Below, in pieces: positions 124 to 11,346 of a DNA stretch of 64,000 nt. Numbering within the stretch: position 1 is the first letter of the stretch; each line of letters opens with the position of its first letter. The notes beneath the pieces are model-generated. The model made no database searches, was not told the DNA's origin, and was given only the letters and a program-made list of their open reading frames with translations. Both the position numbers and the translations under genes were made by a program. This DNA comes from Promicromonospora iranensis (GTDB lineage Bacteria > Actinomycetota > Actinomycetes > Actinomycetales > Cellulomonadaceae). The stretch covers positions 1 through 64,000 of the forward strand of contig NZ_JAJQQP010000009.1 in NCBI RefSeq assembly GCF_028994805.1, written 5' to 3'.

Positions 124-954
124 ATGCGCCTCGTGAAGCGGTGGCTAGTGGGCGGCGGGATCGTCGCGGGTGTGATGGCGGCGTTCGTCGTGGCCGTCGT
201 CGTGGGCATGGTCGCCGGTGGCGGCGGCATGACGGTCGGTGACGGCGGAGGGCAGCCGGCGGCGACGTCGACGAGGGGGCCGACGCCGACCCCGAGCGTG
301 GCGCCGACCCCGACCCCGACGCCGAGCCCGACCCCCGTCCCGTCGGCGGAGAACGCCGAGCAGGCCGCAGGGCGGACCGCCGAGCGGGCGAGCGGGGCGA
401 AGCCGCCCGTCGCGCTGTTCGTCGGCGACTCGTACACGGTCGGCCAGCGCGCGTCGGCGCCGTCGAAGCGCTGGAGCACGATCGTCGCCCGCGAGATGGG
501 CTGGACCGAGCGCAACGTCGCTGACGGCGGCACCGGGTTCGTGAGCCGCTACCCGGACCAGGACCGGCTGTCGTACGCGGAGCAGCTGCGCTCGGTGGGT
601 CCTCGCGGCATCGACCTCGTCGTGATCGCCGGGGGCCAGAACGACTTCCCGGAGCTGCGCGAGACGCCCGCGCGCGTGTTCCGCGCGGTCGCCGACACGT
701 ACGAGCTGGCCGCGCGGCGCTTCCCGGACGCCGAGATCATCGCGGTCGGGCCGTCCACGCCGTGGGAGATCGGGCTCGAGGCACGCGCCCTGGACAGCGC
801 CGTGCGAGCGGCGGCGGAGAGGCACGGGGCGACGTACGTCTCGATGCTCGACCCCGACGTGGTCAGGGACCGGTACATCGATGCGGACGGCACGCACGTC
901 AACGACCGGGGCTACGCCGCCATCTCGCGCCGGGTGGTCTCGCAGATATCTTGA
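124..954 (+). CDS. exported or membrane-anchored SGNH/GDSL-type hydrolase
   Basis: The 276-residue product has a basic N-terminus and one hydrophobic segment (about residues 8-32), then a Pro/Thr-rich linker with repeated TPTP-type motifs (about 45-75), then an SGNH hydrolase domain. Block I is FVGDSYTVG (catalytic Ser in GDS), block III is GGQND, and block V is [10 protein letters not shown] with the catalytic Asp and His. It is therefore probably an esterase or deacetylase acting outside the membrane on cell-wall or polysaccharide esters; the substrate cannot be read from the sequence. The ATG at 124 gives the full segment; a GTG at 133 preceded by AGGA is an alternative start. The stop codon lies inside the palindrome that precedes acnA. 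Confidence 0.8.
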
Positions 955-977
955 CGTCAAGATATATGCGTTATGCT
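946..977 (+). promoter_or_regulatory. acnA promoter with a perfect 20-bp palindrome
   Basis: Positions 946-965 form a perfect palindrome (ATATCTTGACGTCAAGATAT). Its centre holds a TTGACG (951-956) that can act as a -35 box, with TATGCT (972-977) as -10 after a 15-nt spacer. A dimeric regulator bound here would cover the -35 element, so repression of acnA is the simple reading. The palindrome also contains the stop codon of the upstream SGNH gene. The regulator is unknown; MarR- or TetR-type proteins bind sites of this form. The predicted leader before the acnA start is about 110 nt. Confidence 0.6.
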
Positions 978-1096
978 GGCCCGAGCAGCCCGGCTTACGC
1001 TGGGTGAAGCCCCCTGGAACCCATGCGAAGGCTCCGTTGCGCGATGACCGCGCCTGTGAGAGCCGACGCACCGTCAGCCCCGCAGAAGGAGCCACA

Positions 1097-3874
<2,778 letters not shown>

Positions 3875-4055: not shown

Positions 4056-5933
4056 TCAGCCCCCGATCCCGGACCGCTTGGCGGCCCTGGCCATCTGGGA
4101 CTGCTCCTTCTTGGTGATGGTGCCGTCCTCCACGAGCGGGGTCGTGACCTCGGTGACGTGGGCGACGAACGTGCCGTTGTCCACCCACGGCCACGTCTCG
4201 TCGACGAGGTCAGCGATGGTGCAGCCGTTCCCGGTGTCGACGTTCGCGACCTTGCTGTCCACGCCACCGATGATCACCGTGGGGCGCTCGTCGGAGGCGG
4301 GGCAGGCGTCGGTCTCGGTCCAGGCGACCGAGAACCGCAGGGTGCCCGTGCGGGTGACGTTCCCGGCGTTGTCCGTCGCCCGGTACCGCAGGGCGTGCGC
4401 ACCGGGCTCCGTGACCTCGATCTGCGCGGTGAACTCCCGGAACGCCTCGTCGCCGAGCGCGTACTCGATGAGCGCGACCCCGGAACCGGAGTCGCGTGCG
4501 CTGATGGAGATCGTCGCCGTGCCGATGTAGGCACCCTCGGCGTCCTGCTCTCCGCGCACCTCCGCCGAGGCGATCGGCGGCGTGCCGTCCGGTGCCGGGC
4601 CCTCCTCGACGACCACCAGGTCGGCCGAGCCGACCTCCGAGACGTTGCCCGCGTTGTCCGTGGCCCGGAAGGTCACGGTGTGCTCACCGAGCGTGTCGAT
4701 GGTGATCGGCGCGGTGTAGGGCGTGAACGCCTCGCCGTCGAGCGCATACTCGACGCTTGCCACACCGGACCCGGTGTCCTCGGCGAGCAGCTGGACCGTG
4801 GCCGAGCCGCGGTAGTACCCGTCGAAGTCCTGCGAACCCGTGATCTCCGCGGTGACGGTCGGCGCCGTCGTGTCCTCGGCCTGGGCGACCACCGTGAACG
4901 TGGCCGACCCTTCCGCCGAGACGTTGCCCGCGACGTCCGTGGCCCGGTAGGTCACCGTGTGCTCGCCCGCGGTGTCGACGACGACCGGCTCCGTGTACGG
5001 CGCGTACGCACCGCCGTCGAGCGCGTACTCGACGGAGGCGACGCCCGAACCTGCGTCCTGGGCCGCGACGGTCACGGTCGCCGAGGCGATGTAGGCGCCC
5101 GACGAGTCGAGCTCGCCGGTCACCTCGGCGTCCACGACGGGTGCCGTGGTGTCCTCGCCGTCGGCTGACACGACCTCGATGTGCACCATCTCGGGCGTCG
5201 AGACGTTGCCCGCGTTGTCCGTGGCCCGGGTCTCGACCATGTACATGCCCGGCTGGTCCAGGACGAACGGCTCCGTGTACGCCTGGTAGGCGCCACCGTT
5301 GACCGAGTACTCGACGGAGGCGACGCCCGACTCGGCGTCCTGCGCGGTCAGTGCCACCGTGGCCGCGCCGATGTAGGCACCGTCGGCGTCCTGCTGCCCG
5401 GCGACGTCCGCCGTGACGGTCGGCGCCGTGGTGTCGTCCGCCGGCGCTTCGGTGACCACCAGCTCACCGGCCATCGTGCCGTGGCCGGGGATCGCGCAGA
5501 AGTACCGGTACGTGCCCGGCTTCAGGTCGACCTCCGCCTCGTACCGACCACCGTTGGCGTCGAACGGGTTGGCCAGGATGTCCAGGGTGACGTCGTGGTT
5601 GTACCCCGGTGTGCTCGTGTCGAACGTGAGCGTGTGCGACATGCCGATGTTGTTGCCGGTCGCCGCGCTGTTCTCGAACACGATCGTCGCCGGGCCCGCC
5701 GTGGCGGTCTCCGGGGCCGAGGCGTAGTCCGTGACGCTGTTGTCCCCGGTGAAGGTCAGGACCTGGTCGGCCGCTGTCTCGTCGACCGCCGCGAGGGCGG
5801 GCGACTGGGCGGGGGACTGGGCAGCGGTCAGGGCGGCGGGCGCCGCCGTGACCACCGCCGGTGCCAGCGGCAGTGCCACCAGGGCACCGACCGCTGCTCC
5901 CGCCAGCAGGCGGGACACCTTTCGTCTCAACAT
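4056..5933 (-). CDS. secreted cupredoxin with four Ig-like repeats and a C-terminal two-Cys module
   Basis: The 625-residue product has a signal peptide (residues 1-32). Residues 56-161 are a plastocyanin/azurin-like cupredoxin with type-1 copper ligands His100, Cys146, His151 and Met154 (YFCAIPGHGTM). Four OmpL47/chitobiase-type Ig-like repeats follow (about 168-255, 262-349, 354-441, 450-536), each with a SGVA..EYA and ATD.AGNV core. Residues 544-625 form a module with Cys544 and Cys571 that also occurs in the neighbouring ThuA-type protein. The likely role is extracellular electron transfer to or from the operon's oxidase and sugar dehydrogenase (inference). The ATG at 5933 is preferred: it has a GAGAGG upstream and starts the signal peptide. 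A GTG at 5966 would overlap the previous stop codon but has no ribosome site. Confidence 0.88.
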   Translation of the reverse strand: MLRRKVSRLLAGAAVGALVALPLAPAVVTAAPAALTAAQSPAQSPALAAVDETAADQVLTFTGDNSVTDYASAPETATAGPATIVFENSAATGNNIGMSHTLTFDTSTPGYNHDVTLDILANPFDANGGRYEAEVDLKPGTYRYFCAIPGHGTMAGELVVTEAPADDTTAPTVTADVAGQQDADGAYIGAATVALTAQDAESGVASVEYSVNGGAYQAYTEPFVLDQPGMYMVETRATDNAGNVSTPEMVHIEVVSADGEDTTAPVVDAEVTGELDSSGAYIASATVTVAAQDAGSGVASVEYALDGGAYAPYTEPVVVDTAGEHTVTYRATDVAGNVSAEGSATFTVVAQAEDTTAPTVTAEITGSQDFDGYYRGSATVQLLAEDTGSGVASVEYALDGEAFTPYTAPITIDTLGEHTVTFRATDNAGNVSEVGSADLVVVEEGPAPDGTPPIASAEVRGEQDAEGAYIGTATISISARDSGSGVALIEYALGDEAFREFTAQIEVTEPGAHALRYRATDNAGNVTRTGTLRFSVAWTETDACPASDERPTVIIGGVDSKVANVDTGNGCTIADLVDETWPWVDNGTFVAHVTEVTTPLVEDGTITKKEQSQMARAAKRSGIGG

Positions 5934-5962
5934 GGGGGTGCCTCTCGTCTTCGTGGGCGTGG

Positions 5963-8900
5963 TCACAAGTCACGCACCCGGATGTTGCGGAACTCCATGG
6001 CGTCCGCGTCACCGTGGTTCTGCAGACCGATGAAGCCCTTCAGGAACTGCCTCATGTCGCTCGGCGGGTCACCCGCGCGCGAGGACTCCTTGCCCGGTGA
6101 GTTCTCGAACTCGTTGATCACCACGCCGTTGCGGATGATCGTGTACTTCTGGCCGACCACCTTGATCTCGTAGTCGTTCCAGACGCCTTTCGGGGTCGCG
6201 CCCGCGTCGGGCAGCGCGACCGGGTCGAAGTTGTACACCGAACCGGTCTTCTGGGGTTCGCCCGTCGGACCGTCGTAGATCTGGATCTCGTGGCCGCAGT
6301 AGATCGCCACCCACGCCTCGGCGTCGGTCAGCTGACCGCAGTCCGGGCGGTCCTCCTTGGCGACCCGGGGGTCCGGGAACCGGGTGAAGACACCGCTGTT
6401 GGCGAACCCGTCACCCCGCGCGACGTCCTTGAACTGCAGCTTCAGCGAGAAGTCCGCCAGCTCCTCGCCCGGGTGCCACAGCATGCCGAGCCCACCACGT
6501 GCGCGGATCGAACCGTCGTCCTGCAGGTCGAAGTTGCCTCCGGGTGCCTGACGCCAGTCGTCGAGCGTCTCCGCCGTGCCGTCGAACAGCCACCGGTACC
6601 CGGTGGTGCCCCGCGCGCCGATGCCCGACTTCGTGGCGGCCGAGACGAGCGCCTTCTCCTCCTTGGCCGTGATCACCTTGTCGGCCCGCAGCTGCTTCGC
6701 CACAGCGGTGACATGGTTCACGAACTTGGCGTTGGTGTCCCACTGCGCCTCGTCGTTGATCAGGTCGTTGATGGTGCAGCCGCCCAGGTCGTCGTTCGTG
6801 ACGCCGGAGTTCGTCTCGCCCATCCACACCGTGGCCCGGTCGTCCGGGATGGTGCAGGTGGTCTCGACCGGCACGTCGAGCGTCGTGGTCTCACCGTCGG
6901 CGTAGGTCACCGTGAGCTTCGCGTCGTAGCTGCCGACACGGGCGTAGGTGTGCTTCGGGTTCGCCTCGGTCGAGGTGCTCCCGTCGCCGAAGTCCCAGGC
7001 GTAGGAGACGCCGCCGGACTTTCCGCCGGTGAAGGCGACGGTCAGCGGGTTGCTCTGCACGCTGGCGCCGGAGCCGGCGGGCGCCGGGGTCGCCGGGCCG
7101 CCCGTGTAGGTGATCCGGGTGAGCTTCTGGTTCTCGTGCAGCGTGAAGAAGCCGCTGCCGTAGTCGAGCAGGTACAGGGCACCGTCCGGACCGAACTTCG
7201 CGTCCATCCAGCTCTGCAGCTGCGTGTTGCCGTTGCCGCCCTGGACGATGCGGCGCAGGTCCTCTGCGAACAGGGGTGCGCCGGCCTCCTCGACCGTGTC
7301 CGGGTTCACCGTGACGGCCACGCGGTTGTTCGAGTTGGACTGGTCGCCCAGGAACCACTTGTTGTCCCAGTGCTCCGGCCACGCGACGCCGCTGTCGGTG
7401 TCGACCTCCGAGCGGTGGTACGTCGGGCCGTTCATGATGGCCTGACCGCCGCCGCGCAGGTACGGCTGGGTGTAGGTGGCCTCGTCCGCCTCGTAGGTGG
7501 GCACACCGTCCTCGCCGGCCGGGAAGACCGGGCCGCCGCCGTCGGGTGAGTACCAGATCATGTTCGCGCGGGCCGGCGGGATGTCCACGAGGCCCGTGTT
7601 GCGCGGCGAGGTGTTCTTCAGGTTGTCGCAGTCGTACCAGCCGGTCAGGACGCTCGCGTCCTCGTTGCTCCGGTCACGGTAGGGCTGCTTGTTGCCCATG
7701 CAGTACGGCCAGCCCTGGTTGCCCGCCGACGTGATGATCGTGGCGGTCTCGTACTTGGCCGGGCCGAGCTCCGGGCTCGGCGAGCCGGCGTCCGGCCCCA
7801 CCCAGGCGGCGGTCAGCCAGTCGTTCTTCTCGTCGTAGTCGAGGCGCGAGATGTTCCGCACGCCCATGACGTAGATCTCCTGGCGCGTCTTGTCGGCCGG
7901 GTACTCGCCCTCGGGGAACAGGTTGCCCTCGGGGATCGTGTAGGTGCCGTCCGGCTCCGGGTGGATCCGCAGGATCTTGCCGTTCAGGTCGTTCGTGTTG
8001 CCGGAGGTGCGGCGCGCGTCCTGGAACGAGATGCCCGCGTACTCCTGGGTCCAGTTGTTGCCGGAGTAGCCCTGCGAGCCACCGGACGAGTTGCTGTCAC
8101 CGGAACCGATGTAGAGGTTGCCCTCGTTGTCGAAGTCCATGCCACCACCGGCGTGGCAGCAGCTGTGGATCTGCGTCTCCCACTCCAGCAGGTCCTTGCG
8201 CGTGGACTGGTCGATCGCGTCGGCCTCGGAGTCGTACGTGAAGCGCGACACCGTGCGCAGACCGACGCGGCGCTCGCGGTCGATCGACTCGTGCGGCATC
8301 CAGTAGAGGTAGACCCAGCTGTTCTCCTCGAACTTCGGGTCGAGGGTGATGCCGAGCAGACCCTCCTCGTTCTTGACGAGCTCGCTGCCGCTACCGCGGT
8401 GGCCCATGACGTCGAGCGTGGTCAGGAGCTTGGTCTTCTCGGTCTCCGGGTCCCAGCGGTGGACGGTGCCACAGCCGAGGCCGACCTTCGGGTCGTCCCA
8501 CGACACGACGGGACCCGTCGCGCAGGCGGCCTTGCCGATGTAGAAGACGCCGCCGTCGGGGGCGACGGTCAGCCCGTGCGGCTCACCGACCTGGTCGAGC
8601 GTGCCCGCGGTGTTCTTCAGGGTCAGGCGCTGGGACTCGTAGTTGTCGGCGATGGTCGCCTGGCAGTCCCCGCGGGACATACCGGTGGACCAGAGCAGAC
8701 CGCCGAGCAGGTGGTTGCGGAACTCGGGCTGCGAGTAGCTCGCCGCCGTGCCGCCCATGCCGGTGTAGAAGGAGCGGCCGCCGTCGTAGTCACGGCACCA
8801 CGTCACCGGGTGGAAGGCGCCGTTGGCGCCCTCACCCGGCTTGTAGTCCCACTCCTGGACCTGCGCGATGGTGTGCACCTCGCCCACGGGGTTCGGCGAC

Positions 8901-9967
8901 CAGTTGAGCCACCGGTCCGAGCGGGTCCACTTGGTCGGCACGTCCTCGGCCGCCGGGTGCAGGTCGTCGACCACGTTGACGGTCGCCTTCTGGATCGGGA
9001 CGACCGGCTCCGGCTCCTCGTCCGAGGAGGCGTCGAAGAGCTCGATCTCGGCGAGCTGGGTGAGACCGTCACCCGCGTTGGCCGTGATGTCCAGGCGGTA
9101 GTGCTGGTACGCGGTCGTGTTCTCGAAGCGGTAGTCCTGCGCCGAGAACCGGTCCGGGAAGTCCTGGTCCGTCTGGGTGTCCAGGTCGGTCCAGGTCGTA
9201 CCGTCGGTGGAGCCCTGGAGCGTCCAGCTCTTCGGGTCGCGGCCGTCGAAGTCGTTGGCGGAGGTGAGCGCGTAGCGGGTGGCCACGACGGCCTCCGCCA
9301 TCGTCAGGTCGATCTTTGCCGTCGGCTCGAAGGCGAGCCACTTGGTGTTCGAGTCGCCGTCGATCAGGTTCTCGGCGTCCTCGTTCGGCGGGTTCTCCGC
9401 GTTCGCCTTGACGCTGGCGACCTCGAGGGCGTCCGGCAGGTTGCCTGCCGGGCGGGTGCCGATGAGGCCCGTGAACCACTGTGAGCGGTCCTGCGCGCGT
9501 GCGGCGTCACGGATGCCGAGGAACCCGCCACCGCCCTGCACGTACGCCTTGAGCTGCTCCTCCTGGCCGGTGGAGAGCTCGACGCCCTCCGCGGACAGGA
9601 AGACGACGCCGCGGTACTTCGAGAGGTTCTTGGCGGTGAAGACCGAGGGGTCGGACGCGGTCTCCACGGTGAAACCGTGCTCGGCCCCGAGCTCCCTGAT
9701 GGTCCGGGTCGCGAGGGTGACCGGGTCGTTCTGCTTGTCCGGTGCGCCGTGGAAGACCAGCACCGTGACGTCCTGCGCCGCCGTGGTGGCGGCAGGAGCC
9801 ACCACCGCCGAGGGGGTCTGGGCGACCGCCGTGCGCTGGGCCTGCGCGGGCACCGCCGCCATGCTGACGAGAAGGGCGGCGCCGGCGATCGCGGCCAGTG
9901 CGCCGCGCGCCGATCTGAGTGGGCTGGGCCCTCCGCGGAGTGGCGGGCTCGTTGTGATTCGTTCCAT
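5963..9967 (-). CDS. secreted multidomain ThuA / F5-8C / PQQ sugar-dehydrogenase-like / PKD / DUF1080 protein
   Basis: This 1334-residue protein has a signal peptide ending near residue 43. A ThuA-like domain (about 66-184 and 326-436) is split by an F5/8-type C (discoidin-like) domain at about 185-314. A soluble glucose/sorbosone-dehydrogenase propeller follows at about 455-955, with GVRN at 702-705 matching the family's conserved RN pair and a cysteine-rich HSCCHAGGGMDF at 601-612. Next come a PKD domain (967-1034, WDFGDGSTS), the shared two-Cys module (1036-1117, Cys1038 and Cys1064) and a C-terminal DUF1080 domain (1122-1334, 3-keto-disaccharide hydrolase-like). It is probably an extracellular enzyme that oxidises and/or cleaves a glycoside. 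The ATG at 9967 follows a strong AAAGGAG; the frame is open further upstream but only as a shadow of the oxidase gene. The gene lies 23 nt after the oxidase gene. Confidence 0.92.
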   Translation of the reverse strand: MERITTSPPLRGGPSPLRSARGALAAIAGAALLVSMAAVPAQAQRTAVAQTPSAVVAPAATTAAQDVTVLVFHGAPDKQNDPVTLATRTIRELGAEHGFTVETASDPSVFTAKNLSKYRGVVFLSAEGVELSTGQEEQLKAYVQGGGGFLGIRDAARAQDRSQWFTGLIGTRPAGNLPDALEVASVKANAENPPNEDAENLIDGDSNTKWLAFEPTAKIDLTMAEAVVATRYALTSANDFDGRDPKSWTLQGSTDGTTWTDLDTQTDQDFPDRFSAQDYRFENTTAYQHYRLDITANAGDGLTQLAEIELFDASSDEEPEPVVPIQKATVNVVDDLHPAAEDVPTKWTRSDRWLNWSPNPVGEVHTIAQVQEWDYKPGEGANGAFHPVTWCRDYDGGRSFYTGMGGTAASYSQPEFRNHLLGGLLWSTGMSRGDCQATIADNYESQRLTLKNTAGTLDQVGEPHGLTVAPDGGVFYIGKAACATGPVVSWDDPKVGLGCGTVHRWDPETEKTKLLTTLDVMGHRGSGSELVKNEEGLLGITLDPKFEENSWVYLYWMPHESIDRERRVGLRTVSRFTYDSEADAIDQSTRKDLLEWETQIHSCCHAGGGMDFDNEGNLYIGSGDSNSSGGSQGYSGNNWTQEYAGISFQDARRTSGNTNDLNGKILRIHPEPDGTYTIPEGNLFPEGEYPADKTRQEIYVMGVRNISRLDYDEKNDWLTAAWVGPDAGSPSPELGPAKYETATIITSAGNQGWPYCMGNKQPYRDRSNEDASVLTGWYDCDNLKNTSPRNTGLVDIPPARANMIWYSPDGGGPVFPAGEDGVPTYEADEATYTQPYLRGGGQAIMNGPTYHRSEVDTDSGVAWPEHWDNKWFLGDQSNSNNRVAVTVNPDTVEEAGAPLFAEDLRRIVQGGNGNTQLQSWMDAKFGPDGALYLLDYGSGFFTLHENQKLTRITYTGGPATPAPAGSGASVQSNPLTVAFTGGKSGGVSYAWDFGDGSTSTEANPKHTYARVGSYDAKLTVTYADGETTTLDVPVETTCTIPDDRATVWMGETNSGVTNDDLGGCTINDLINDEAQWDTNAKFVNHVTAVAKQLRADKVITAKEEKALVSAATKSGIGARGTTGYRWLFDGTAETLDDWRQAPGGNFDLQDDGSIRARGGLGMLWHPGEELADFSLKLQFKDVARGDGFANSGVFTRFPDPRVAKEDRPDCGQLTDAEAWVAIYCGHEIQIYDGPTGEPQKTGSVYNFDPVALPDAGATPKGVWNDYEIKVVGQKYTIIRNGVVINEFENSPGKESSRAGDPPSDMRQFLKGFIGLQNHGDADAMEFRNIRVRDL

Positions 9968-9990
9968 CACTGCTCCTTTGCGCGTGAACT

Positions 9991-11046
9991 TCAGTGGGAA
10001 CCAGCGGTGTGGCCGGTGTGCTCGTGGTGCTGGAAGCGGTCGATGGCCTCCTGGGCGCCGTCCGGCATGGAGCCGTCGGCGTTGCGCACGAGGAAGATGC
10101 CCGCCATGCCGCCGTCCGAGTGGAACTGGACGTGGCAGTGGTACATCCAGGCGCCCGGGCCCACCGCCTCGCCCGCGATGACCTGGAACCCGAACGAGGA
10201 ACCGGGGTTGAGGTCGACGTTGTCGACCACCTGGCTGGGGTCGTCGGGGCCCATCAGGTAGCCGGTGCGGTTGTCCGCCCAGCGGTGGGCGTGAAGGTGG
10301 AACGTGTGCAGCTGGTCGCCGTGGCCGATGGCGAGGATCTCGACCTTCTCGCCGAGGTTCGCCTCGAGCATGGGAGTGTCGGGCGCCATCTTGTTGTTGA
10401 TGGTCATGTCGTTGAACACGACGGTGTACTGCCGGTCGGGCAGGATGTCGCCCTTGCGCCGCACGATGAGACCGCCGTAGAGCCCCTTGCGCAGGCCCTC
10501 GGTGCCGTGGTCGCCACCCAGCGCGTGGTCGTGGTAGTGCCAGTAACCGGCGCTGCCCGGGATCCATCGGGTGTCGTCGGCCCGGTGCTGCACGTGGCTG
10601 CTCCACGTGTAGGTACGCGTCTCGCCCGGCTCGTTGAACGAGTCGTTGAACGGGCTGCCGTCCGACGTGGTCTTGTAGTCCACGCCGTGCGGGTGGATCG
10701 ACAGCCGCCGGTCGGTGTTGTTCACCAGCTCGATCTGGAGCGTGTCGCCCTCCCACATCTCGAGCATGGGCCCCGGGATGGTGGCCTCGCCCGGAGCCAG
10801 ACCGTATCCGTACTGCCCGCCCGGGAGCTCCTCGGCGTACATGGTGATGTGCCGGGTGGTGCCCTGTGTGCTGACGGGCGGGGTTGTCGGCGCCGGCGCC
10901 GGCTTGGTCGAGACCGCCGCGGCCGTGTCGGCGCCGAGCGCCAGTACCGCGGTCGGAGCCATCAGGCCGGCCAGGGTGCCGGTCAGGACACTGCGACGGG
11001 ACATACCGCCCAGGGGGGATCGGGTGTCAGGGCTGTTCTCAGGCAT
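9991..11046 (-). CDS. Tat-exported two-domain multicopper oxidase (small-laccase type)
   Basis: The 351-residue protein starts with a twin-arginine signal (SRRSVLTG, residues 16-23) and an Ala-rich cleavage region near 45. All copper-binding motifs are present: HPHG (118-121), WHYHDH (169-174), HTFHLHAH (247-254) and [12 protein letters not shown] (303-314), with Cys304 and Met314 for type-1 copper. The length and two cupredoxin folds match small laccases that work as trimers and reduce O2 to water. Tat export suits a cofactor-loaded enzyme. It is first in an operon with the ThuA-type and cupredoxin genes, so it may be the terminal oxidase of that chain (inference). ATG 11046 has GGAG 5 nt upstream. 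Confidence 0.93.
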
Positions 11047-11118
11047 GCGTCTCCGTTCGACACCGTCGGGCAGGCCTCAGGGCCGTCCCGACGAGACAGG
11101 GATCAGGGGGATGGGGGT

Positions 11119-11184
11119 TCAGACGCGCGAAGCTGTCGGCGGCGACGCCGCGGATGACAGCGATGTCACGAAGGTGGACCACAT
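11119..11184 (-). CDS. possible 21-codon leader ORF upstream of the multicopper oxidase
   Basis: An ATG at 11184, preceded by GGAGGG with 8-nt spacing, opens a 21-codon frame (starting MWSTFVTS) that ends at 11119, 72 nt before the oxidase start. It lies inside the predicted long 5' leader. No repeated rare codon or metal-binding motif is obvious. The good ribosome site and position are the only support, so this may be chance. Confidence 0.25.
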   Translation of the reverse strand: MWSTFVTSLSSAASPPTASRV

Positions 11185-11317
11185 CGTCGTTCCCTCCAAG
11201 GACGTCGGCTCGTGACCGTCTACGGCGGCGGACACGCCCTCACGACCCATGCGGCCACCGTGCCGGAAAGACCTGGATGGCTCGCATGCGTGTTGTGCAC
11301 CACAAAGTGGCTTTGCG

Positions 11318-11346
11318 AACCTATGGCGACTTCTGCCGAGTGTCAA
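11318..11346 (-). promoter_or_regulatory. promoter of the copper/sugar-oxidation operon
   Basis: On the minus strand, TTGACA (11346-11341) and TAGGTT (11323-11318) are separated by exactly 17 nt, a very good match to a housekeeping sigma promoter. Transcription should start near 11311, giving a leader of about 265 nt before the oxidase gene. The leader also holds a short inverted repeat (11065-11070 with 11087-11092). The rest of the 446-nt interval 11047-11492 holds only the possible leader ORF and the terminator of the next unit. Confidence 0.65.

Follow-up and report, generated by a model that had tools for sequence, protein, structure and literature searches.

Gene content of the locus

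The window analysed here is a 64,000-nucleotide (nt) stretch of Promicromonospora iranensis (contig NZ_JAJQQP010000009.1, positions 1 to 64,000), and it contains a block of three minus-strand genes encoding a small laccase (gene 1), an exported multidomain protein with a sugar-dehydrogenase-type propeller (gene 2) and an exported protein with a type-1 cupredoxin domain (gene 3). The gaps between them measure 23 nt (genes 1 and 2) and 29 nt (genes 2 and 3), and the coordinates bear out the tight same-strand arrangement that an earlier note on this DNA had described (Table 1).

Table 1. Coordinates of the three genes, their domains and a promoter-like site in the window
Feature	Position	Strand	Evidence
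Gene 1, two-domain small laccase (SLAC family), 351 amino acids (aa)	9991-11046	minus	open reading frame, Pfam and PDB matches
Gene 2, exported ThuA - propeller - PKD - 80-aa domain - DUF1080 protein, 1334 aa	5963-9967	minus	
ThuA, two halves flanking the insert, outer limits approximate	8690-9847	minus	PF06283, E 6.5e-54, two stretches
CBM32-like F5/8 type C insert within ThuA, residues 187-307	9047-9409	minus	PF00754, E 3.1e-11
GSDH-type propeller, residues 481-965	7073-8527	minus	PF07995, E 7.4e-20, 71.9 bits, cut-off 25
PKD domain	6863-7072	minus	PF18911
80-aa domain, gene 2 copy	6623-6862	minus	44% identity to gene 3 copy
DUF1080 / 3-keto-disaccharide hydrolase domain	5972-6595	minus	PF06439 (3keto-disac_hyd), E 1.3e-32
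Gene 3, exported cupredoxin protein with OmpL47-type repeats, 625 aa	4056-5933	minus	
Type-1 cupredoxin domain, H100, C146, H151, M154	5439-5783	minus	PF00127, 27 bits, cut-off 21.2
Four OmpL47-type repeats, spacer or surface part	4329-5438	minus	NF047446, E 7.6e-102, four stretches
80-aa domain, gene 3 copy	4059-4313	minus	BLASTP against gene 2 copy
Weak promoter-like site, TTGACA (11346-11341) and TAGGTT 17 nt on	11318-11346	minus	seen in sequence only

Gene 1 matches the Pfam domains Cu-oxidase_3 and Cu-oxidase_2, two cupredoxin domains with a long match to SLAC, and its structural matches include PDB 3t9w (E 3.8e-131) and 3cg8 (SLAC, E 1.8e-117). By its sequence, gene 1 belongs to the small-laccase SLAC family, and its description as a two-domain multicopper oxidase holds; the N-terminus carries a twin-arginine motif (SRRSVL) that predicts export, as read by eye rather than with signal-peptide software. 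All copper ligands are present in the window laccase, four for the type-1 and eight for the type-2/3 sites, the type of each ligand being presumably that of its SLAC counterpart, and their positions are kept in 116 to 122 of 122 aligned rows. The type-1 cysteine is lost in two paralogous copies among these rows (L081 and L082). These are second small-laccase copies (L081:10234-11013 and L082:5707-6606), each beside another copy and with other ligands also gone, and they are likely to be non-catalytic paralogues. The window laccase shares 99% identity with that of P. iranensis, and the laccase is carried by 13 of 13 Promicromonospora genomes, including the window genome. PDB 3CG8 is named as SLAC in the literature (PMC9692349).

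The alignment rows were kept above 150 bits for the laccase, 300 bits for the GSDH propeller, 100 bits for DUF1080 and 60 bits for the cupredoxin, and loci L084-L088 were left out.

The propeller, ThuA and DUF1080 domains previously read in gene 2 were all matched, ThuA (PF06283) at 183.8 bits against a cut-off of 33.4 and DUF1080 (PF06439) at 113.9 bits against 26.8. The earlier domain list was right but incomplete, having overlooked the CBM32-like insert in ThuA, the PKD domain, the four OmpL47-type repeats of gene 3 and an 80-aa domain common to genes 2 and 3. The insert resembles the CBM32-like domain of the GH92 mannosidase PDB 7nsn, with the best stretch at residues 182-320. The DUF1080 domain would cleave a 3-keto-glycoside; proteins of this family have been linked to the hydrolysis of 3-ketotrehalose and were proposed to cleave 3'-ketolactose in the periplasm (PMC9007349).

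The N-terminal domain of gene 3 is of the plastocyanin/azurin type, and Copper-bind scores 23.1 bits over the whole protein, above its cut-off as in the domain score, in agreement with the type-1 cupredoxin read earlier. The His-Cys-His-Met ligand set is present in the window protein and invariant in 109 of 109 cupredoxin rows. The two copies of the 80-aa domain align with a BLASTP E of 3e-19, and the domain had no match in NCBIfam at E 0.01 or in Pfam at E 1. Each window copy contains two cysteines.

Linkage across Actinomycetes

The linkage of the three genes is real and near-perfect. Each part was searched separately in 197 sampled Actinomycetes genomes, that of the window included. The laccase was found in 32 genomes (best match E ≤ 1e-107), with a clean gap to two further genomes at only about 1e-24, and the cupredoxin domain (E ≤ 1e-10) in exactly the same 32, its weakest matches being in G064 and G079 (about 1e-11 to 1e-12). 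For gene 2, the top three candidates per genome were scored, and among the matches listed the gene-2 type (E ≤ 1e-237) occurs in 31 of the 32 laccase genomes, the exception being G016, and in none of the 165 others. Partial gene-2 matches (E ≤ 1e-20) were found in at least 21 more genomes, G016 included, which makes at least 52 in all, some of them covering the CBM32-like or DUF1080 part alone; thus, such proteins are not tied to the laccase in general, and one clade of them is.

The same picture was obtained from gene order, for which 35 regions around the laccase genes of this sample were fetched and their domains mapped. Each of the 31 genomes with the gene-2 type, the window genome among them, has gene 2 next to a laccase, and in 30 of them the cupredoxin gene belongs to the same stretch; the remaining one, G164, reaches a contig end before it and has its cupredoxin on a different contig. 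The laccase occurs without gene 2 in five of the 35 regions (L069, L075, L076, L077 and L083), and the cupredoxin is kept in L075-L077. A second set of loci, the best 80 of 566 relatives in named genomes and leaning to window-like laccases, contains all three genes in 76 cases, the exceptions being L095 (laccase and cupredoxin), L112 (laccase alone), L144 (no cupredoxin) and L167 (contig end). Together the sets give 115 loci, which overlap (contigs of 111219, 192357, 17979, 21328 and 228420 nt occur in both sets) and are not independent, and 105 of these clear stricter score thresholds for each of the three genes. The laccase-cupredoxin pair is kept in four of the seven loci without gene 2 (L075, L076, L077 and L095, as opposed to L069, L083 and L112). 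The co-occurrence in relatives that the earlier note had anticipated is therefore confirmed in both sets, and an explanation by chance neighbours was rejected on the same counts.

The linkage persists where the layout is rearranged. In 11 loci of the Streptomyces type (genus g28, a label inferred from the match of the L066 laccase to 3cg8) and in five other loci, the laccase gene is divergent. Gene 2 of the 11 Streptomyces-type loci stops after the propeller and has no match to the CBM32-like insert, and the DUF1080 domain instead forms the C-terminal part of the cupredoxin protein; in L066 this protein scores 112.6 bits for 3keto-disac_hyd and 20.1 bits for Copper-bind, just under the cut-off of 21.2. 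The L066 laccase matches SLAC 3cg8 at E 3.9e-205, which makes this block the genomic setting of the textbook SLAC family. With few exceptions the 80-aa domain sits just ahead of DUF1080 in both layouts, so recombination between its two copies would be a simple route from one layout to the other. At a Halopolyspora locus (L120:14327-17235) gene 2 lacks DUF1080 and a DUF1080 match lies just downstream of the cupredoxin reading frame, a layout that is possibly intermediate between the two.

A proposed route from glycoside to oxygen

Here it is proposed that the block encodes an exported three-protein actinobacterial module, in which the GSDH-type propeller of gene 2 would oxidise a glycoside outside the cell, assisted by the carbohydrate-binding parts, and the DUF1080 domain, perhaps with ThuA, would then open the oxidised glycoside, probably in its 3-keto form. 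The electrons would leave the propeller singly through the type-1 cupredoxin of gene 3 and enter the small laccase at its type-1 copper; the laccase would reduce O2 to water. Taken as a whole, this chain of secreted glycoside oxidation, cupredoxin transfer and O2 reduction by SLAC has, in our judgement, about an even chance of being correct. It builds on genes, domains, copper ligands, propeller catalytic residues and a near-perfect linkage, all of them observed. The substrate and keto step, the part played by ThuA, the choice of partners and the direction of the electrons are presumed; the cupredoxin-laccase pairing has its best support in the exact match between the 32 genomes of the one and those of the other, and in the four loci that keep both genes without gene 2, and the cupredoxin-sugar pairing in the fusion to DUF1080.

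The redox activity of the propeller, possibly with scavenged pyrroloquinoline quinone (PQQ) as the cofactor, is suggested by its catalytic residues. A propeller profile (A3) built from 23 sequences matched the soluble glucose dehydrogenase sGDH (PDB 1c9u) at E 2.2e-11, with 2ism as the top match (E 3.7e-15). In the profile alignment with sGDH, window residues H605, D624, R704-N705 and G735-P736 align with sGDH H144, D163, R228-N229 and G247-P248 (counted off the alignment), of which we take D163 to be catalytic. All of these window residues are invariant in 108 of 108 propeller rows. The roles of sGDH His144, Arg228, Asn229, Gly247 and Pro248 are described in PMC6881810, and sGDH also uses Arg408 and Lys377, the latter being absent from a fungal enzyme (PMC6881789). 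The PQQ- and calcium-binding residues to which the earlier note had pointed were thus found in part: the catalytic His, Asp and Arg-Asn and the calcium Gly-Pro are there, but counterparts of Arg408 and Lys377 were not found. The reactive core is therefore kept and the PQQ-carboxylate clamp is unproven.

Several observations weigh against this proposal. The motif R-x-R-[DTSN]-V of the PQQ-carboxylate region (Arg408/Lys377) is in none of the aligned rows, the profile alignments not spanning that half, and hhalign to Escherichia coli Asd and three GSDHs of the window genome extends no further than columns 17-276 of 482. Against a cut-off of 434.55, the NCBIfam PQQ model TIGR03606 reaches 38.2 bits, which is far too low. 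A search for PqqC gave no match in the window genome; across the 197 genomes PqqC is over the cut-off in two, which served as positive controls, and weak in two further ones. PqqE is over the cut-off in two of seven genomes tried (G073 and G153) and weak, below the cut-off, in the window genome. Furthermore, the position at which sGDHs attack sugars is C1, giving lactones, and not C3 (PMC6881810), and co-occurrence carries no information on the direction of electrons. No cupredoxin or laccase match was found in the 20-kb stretches around two other ThuA-GSDH proteins of the window genome (C3 and C14), so this kind of propeller can work outside such a chain.

Both PqqC-positive genomes are of the Streptomyces type and carry the block, and they are the same two in which PqqE is over the cut-off. 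PQQ, if used, would have to be scavenged by most carriers in the sample. The earlier note had called the chain complete and self-contained, which is not supported: with no PqqC match and PqqE only weak in the window genome, the chain would not be self-contained if PQQ is needed. PQQ synthesis by the host counts as supporting evidence for an sGDH/Asd-type enzyme and does not strictly define one. The C3 and C14 paralogues (L084 and L085 in G000) have the architecture ThuA-GSDH-PKD-CBM6 and lie near sugar-isomerase-like, ABC and regulator-like genes, and the C3 copy has sugar-isomerase-like and Gfo/Idh-like genes nearby (translations read).

The main rival explanation, which we consider unlikely though a serious contender, is that the laccase acts, as is generally assumed, on lignin or other phenols while the sugar domains act on the carbohydrate side (lignin-carbohydrate bonds or phenolic glycosides), with the cupredoxin shuttling from phenol to laccase and not from the propeller. 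The carbohydrate-binding modules would suit this role, as would the loci that pair laccase and cupredoxin without gene 2 (four of seven), and a laccase-negative SilA mutant of Streptomyces ipomoeae solubilises less straw lignin (PMC5675413), which also counts against the glycoside-to-oxygen chain. Nevertheless, gene 2 accompanies the laccase in all but one of its genomes, and in the 11 Streptomyces-type loci the carrier shares its polypeptide with DUF1080, which links it to sugar chemistry.

It is quite unlikely, in our view, that the propeller is not redox-active and only binds, gene 2 acting as a scaffold that holds glycans and carries a DUF1080 hydrolase. Hedgehog-interacting protein (HIP) only binds, and the profile built here also matches HIP (E 2e-6); the lack of pqqC in most carriers points the same way, as does the failure to find the PQQ-carboxylate residues. 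On the other hand, the catalytic and calcium-binding core is invariant in all 108 rows, and a scaffold leaves a dedicated cupredoxin and oxidase unexplained.

Copper handling, in which the cupredoxin would bind and deliver copper (to the laccase or out of the cell), the laccase would oxidise Cu(I) and gene 2 would be a co-regulated passenger, is very unlikely, since in spite of the copper sites in two of the three proteins and the copper homeostasis proposed for some bacterial laccases (PMC3527528, PMC5675413), the full His-Cys-His-Met set in 109 of 109 rows suits electron transfer, sugar-type regulators lie near some blocks, and the translation starts of the 22 largest recurring flank groups, read by eye, include no copper gene.

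With regard to the substrate of the proposed chain, sugar-related genes were found in a minority of the 115 stretches: sugar isomerase in nine, Gfo/Idh/MocA in six and sugar ABC parts in six to seven, with ROK and LacI regulators in eight loci each. In L120 and L146 the block is set among Gfo/Idh/MocA, xylose-isomerase-like and sugar-type ABC genes. Because such sugar-catabolism genes are near only 5-9 of the 115 blocks, they are a weak hint of the substrate, and no transporter or glycoside hydrolase recurring in most of these loci was seen. The largest flank group (30 of 115 loci, for example L137:16379-17392) encodes a protein that looks secreted and matches no Pfam family at E 1e-5, at a median distance of 249 bases from the block.

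Upstream of gene 1, the "one good promoter" described earlier was not recovered, given that a consensus promoter scan reports no sites at the TTGACA/TAGGTT candidate, which lies about 270 nt ahead of the start codon. On the other side of the block, a plus-strand gene with an aconitase-like translation (window 881-3874) stops some 180 nt away from where gene 3 ends, and an aconitase-like gene is near the block again in six of the 115 loci (L089-L094).

Comparison with known systems

The domain families of the block are all known except for the 80-aa domain, and the plan of dehydrogenase, carrier and oxidase is also known. No description of this three-gene block was found among the open-licence papers listed, so it may have been published elsewhere. 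SLAC/SCO6712 of Streptomyces coelicolor (3CG8), SilA and Ssl1 belong to the same family as gene 1, with two domains, all copper ligands and a twin-arginine start. SLAC-type laccases are known as oxidases of phenols and of 2,2'-azino-bis(3-ethylbenzothiazoline-6-sulfonic acid) (ABTS), and the accessible parts of the literature examined name neither a protein electron donor nor this gene neighbourhood. In those same parts, morphogenesis, pigment, lignin and copper are proposed as their roles, with the role in the producing cell unsettled.

We put forward, tentatively and as a possibility only, that the native job of SLAC is that of an exported terminal oxidase and not phenol oxidation, the enzyme draining, through its own cupredoxin, a glycoside-oxidising propeller that is fused to ThuA and would bind its cofactor differently from known PQQ enzymes. 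If true, Gram-positive soil bacteria would have an extracellular sugar respiration that runs on copper alone. Laccases of the SLAC type have attracted much study and biotechnological use; the block offers them a candidate natural electron donor that can be tested, and the linkage can be tested in S. coelicolor. A natural copper chain from sugar to oxygen could also serve enzyme-electrode and lignocellulose work.

The propeller of gene 2 shares its homology and catalytic core with sGDH (1C9U) and with the aldose sugar dehydrogenase of E. coli (YliI, 2G8S). Unlike these, it is fused to ThuA, PKD and DUF1080, the C-terminal PQQ-binding residues were not found in it, and its genome has no PqqC match. 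The fungal AA12 pyranose dehydrogenase CcPDH also combines a PQQ propeller with a one-electron carrier and also lacks Lys377; there a fused cytochrome b domain acts as the carrier, and no laccase, ThuA or DUF1080 is mentioned in the accessible text (PMC6881789). The proposed sugar chemistry resembles the 3-keto-lactose route of Caulobacter, with oxidation outside the cytoplasm by LacABC followed by a proposed DUF1080 step; its dehydrogenase is not a GSDH propeller, and the part of the source available mentions no cupredoxin or laccase (PMC9007349).

The PVC-type heme-binding dehydrogenases (TIGR02604) show a weak match to the latter half of the propeller in L066 (E 1.7e-4, 21.1 bits, far under the cut-off of 122.2), and this model is not among the NCBIfam matches of the window gene 2 protein. 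The carrier of the PVC-type dehydrogenases is a fused heme domain, whereas the putative carrier in the window is a separate copper protein.

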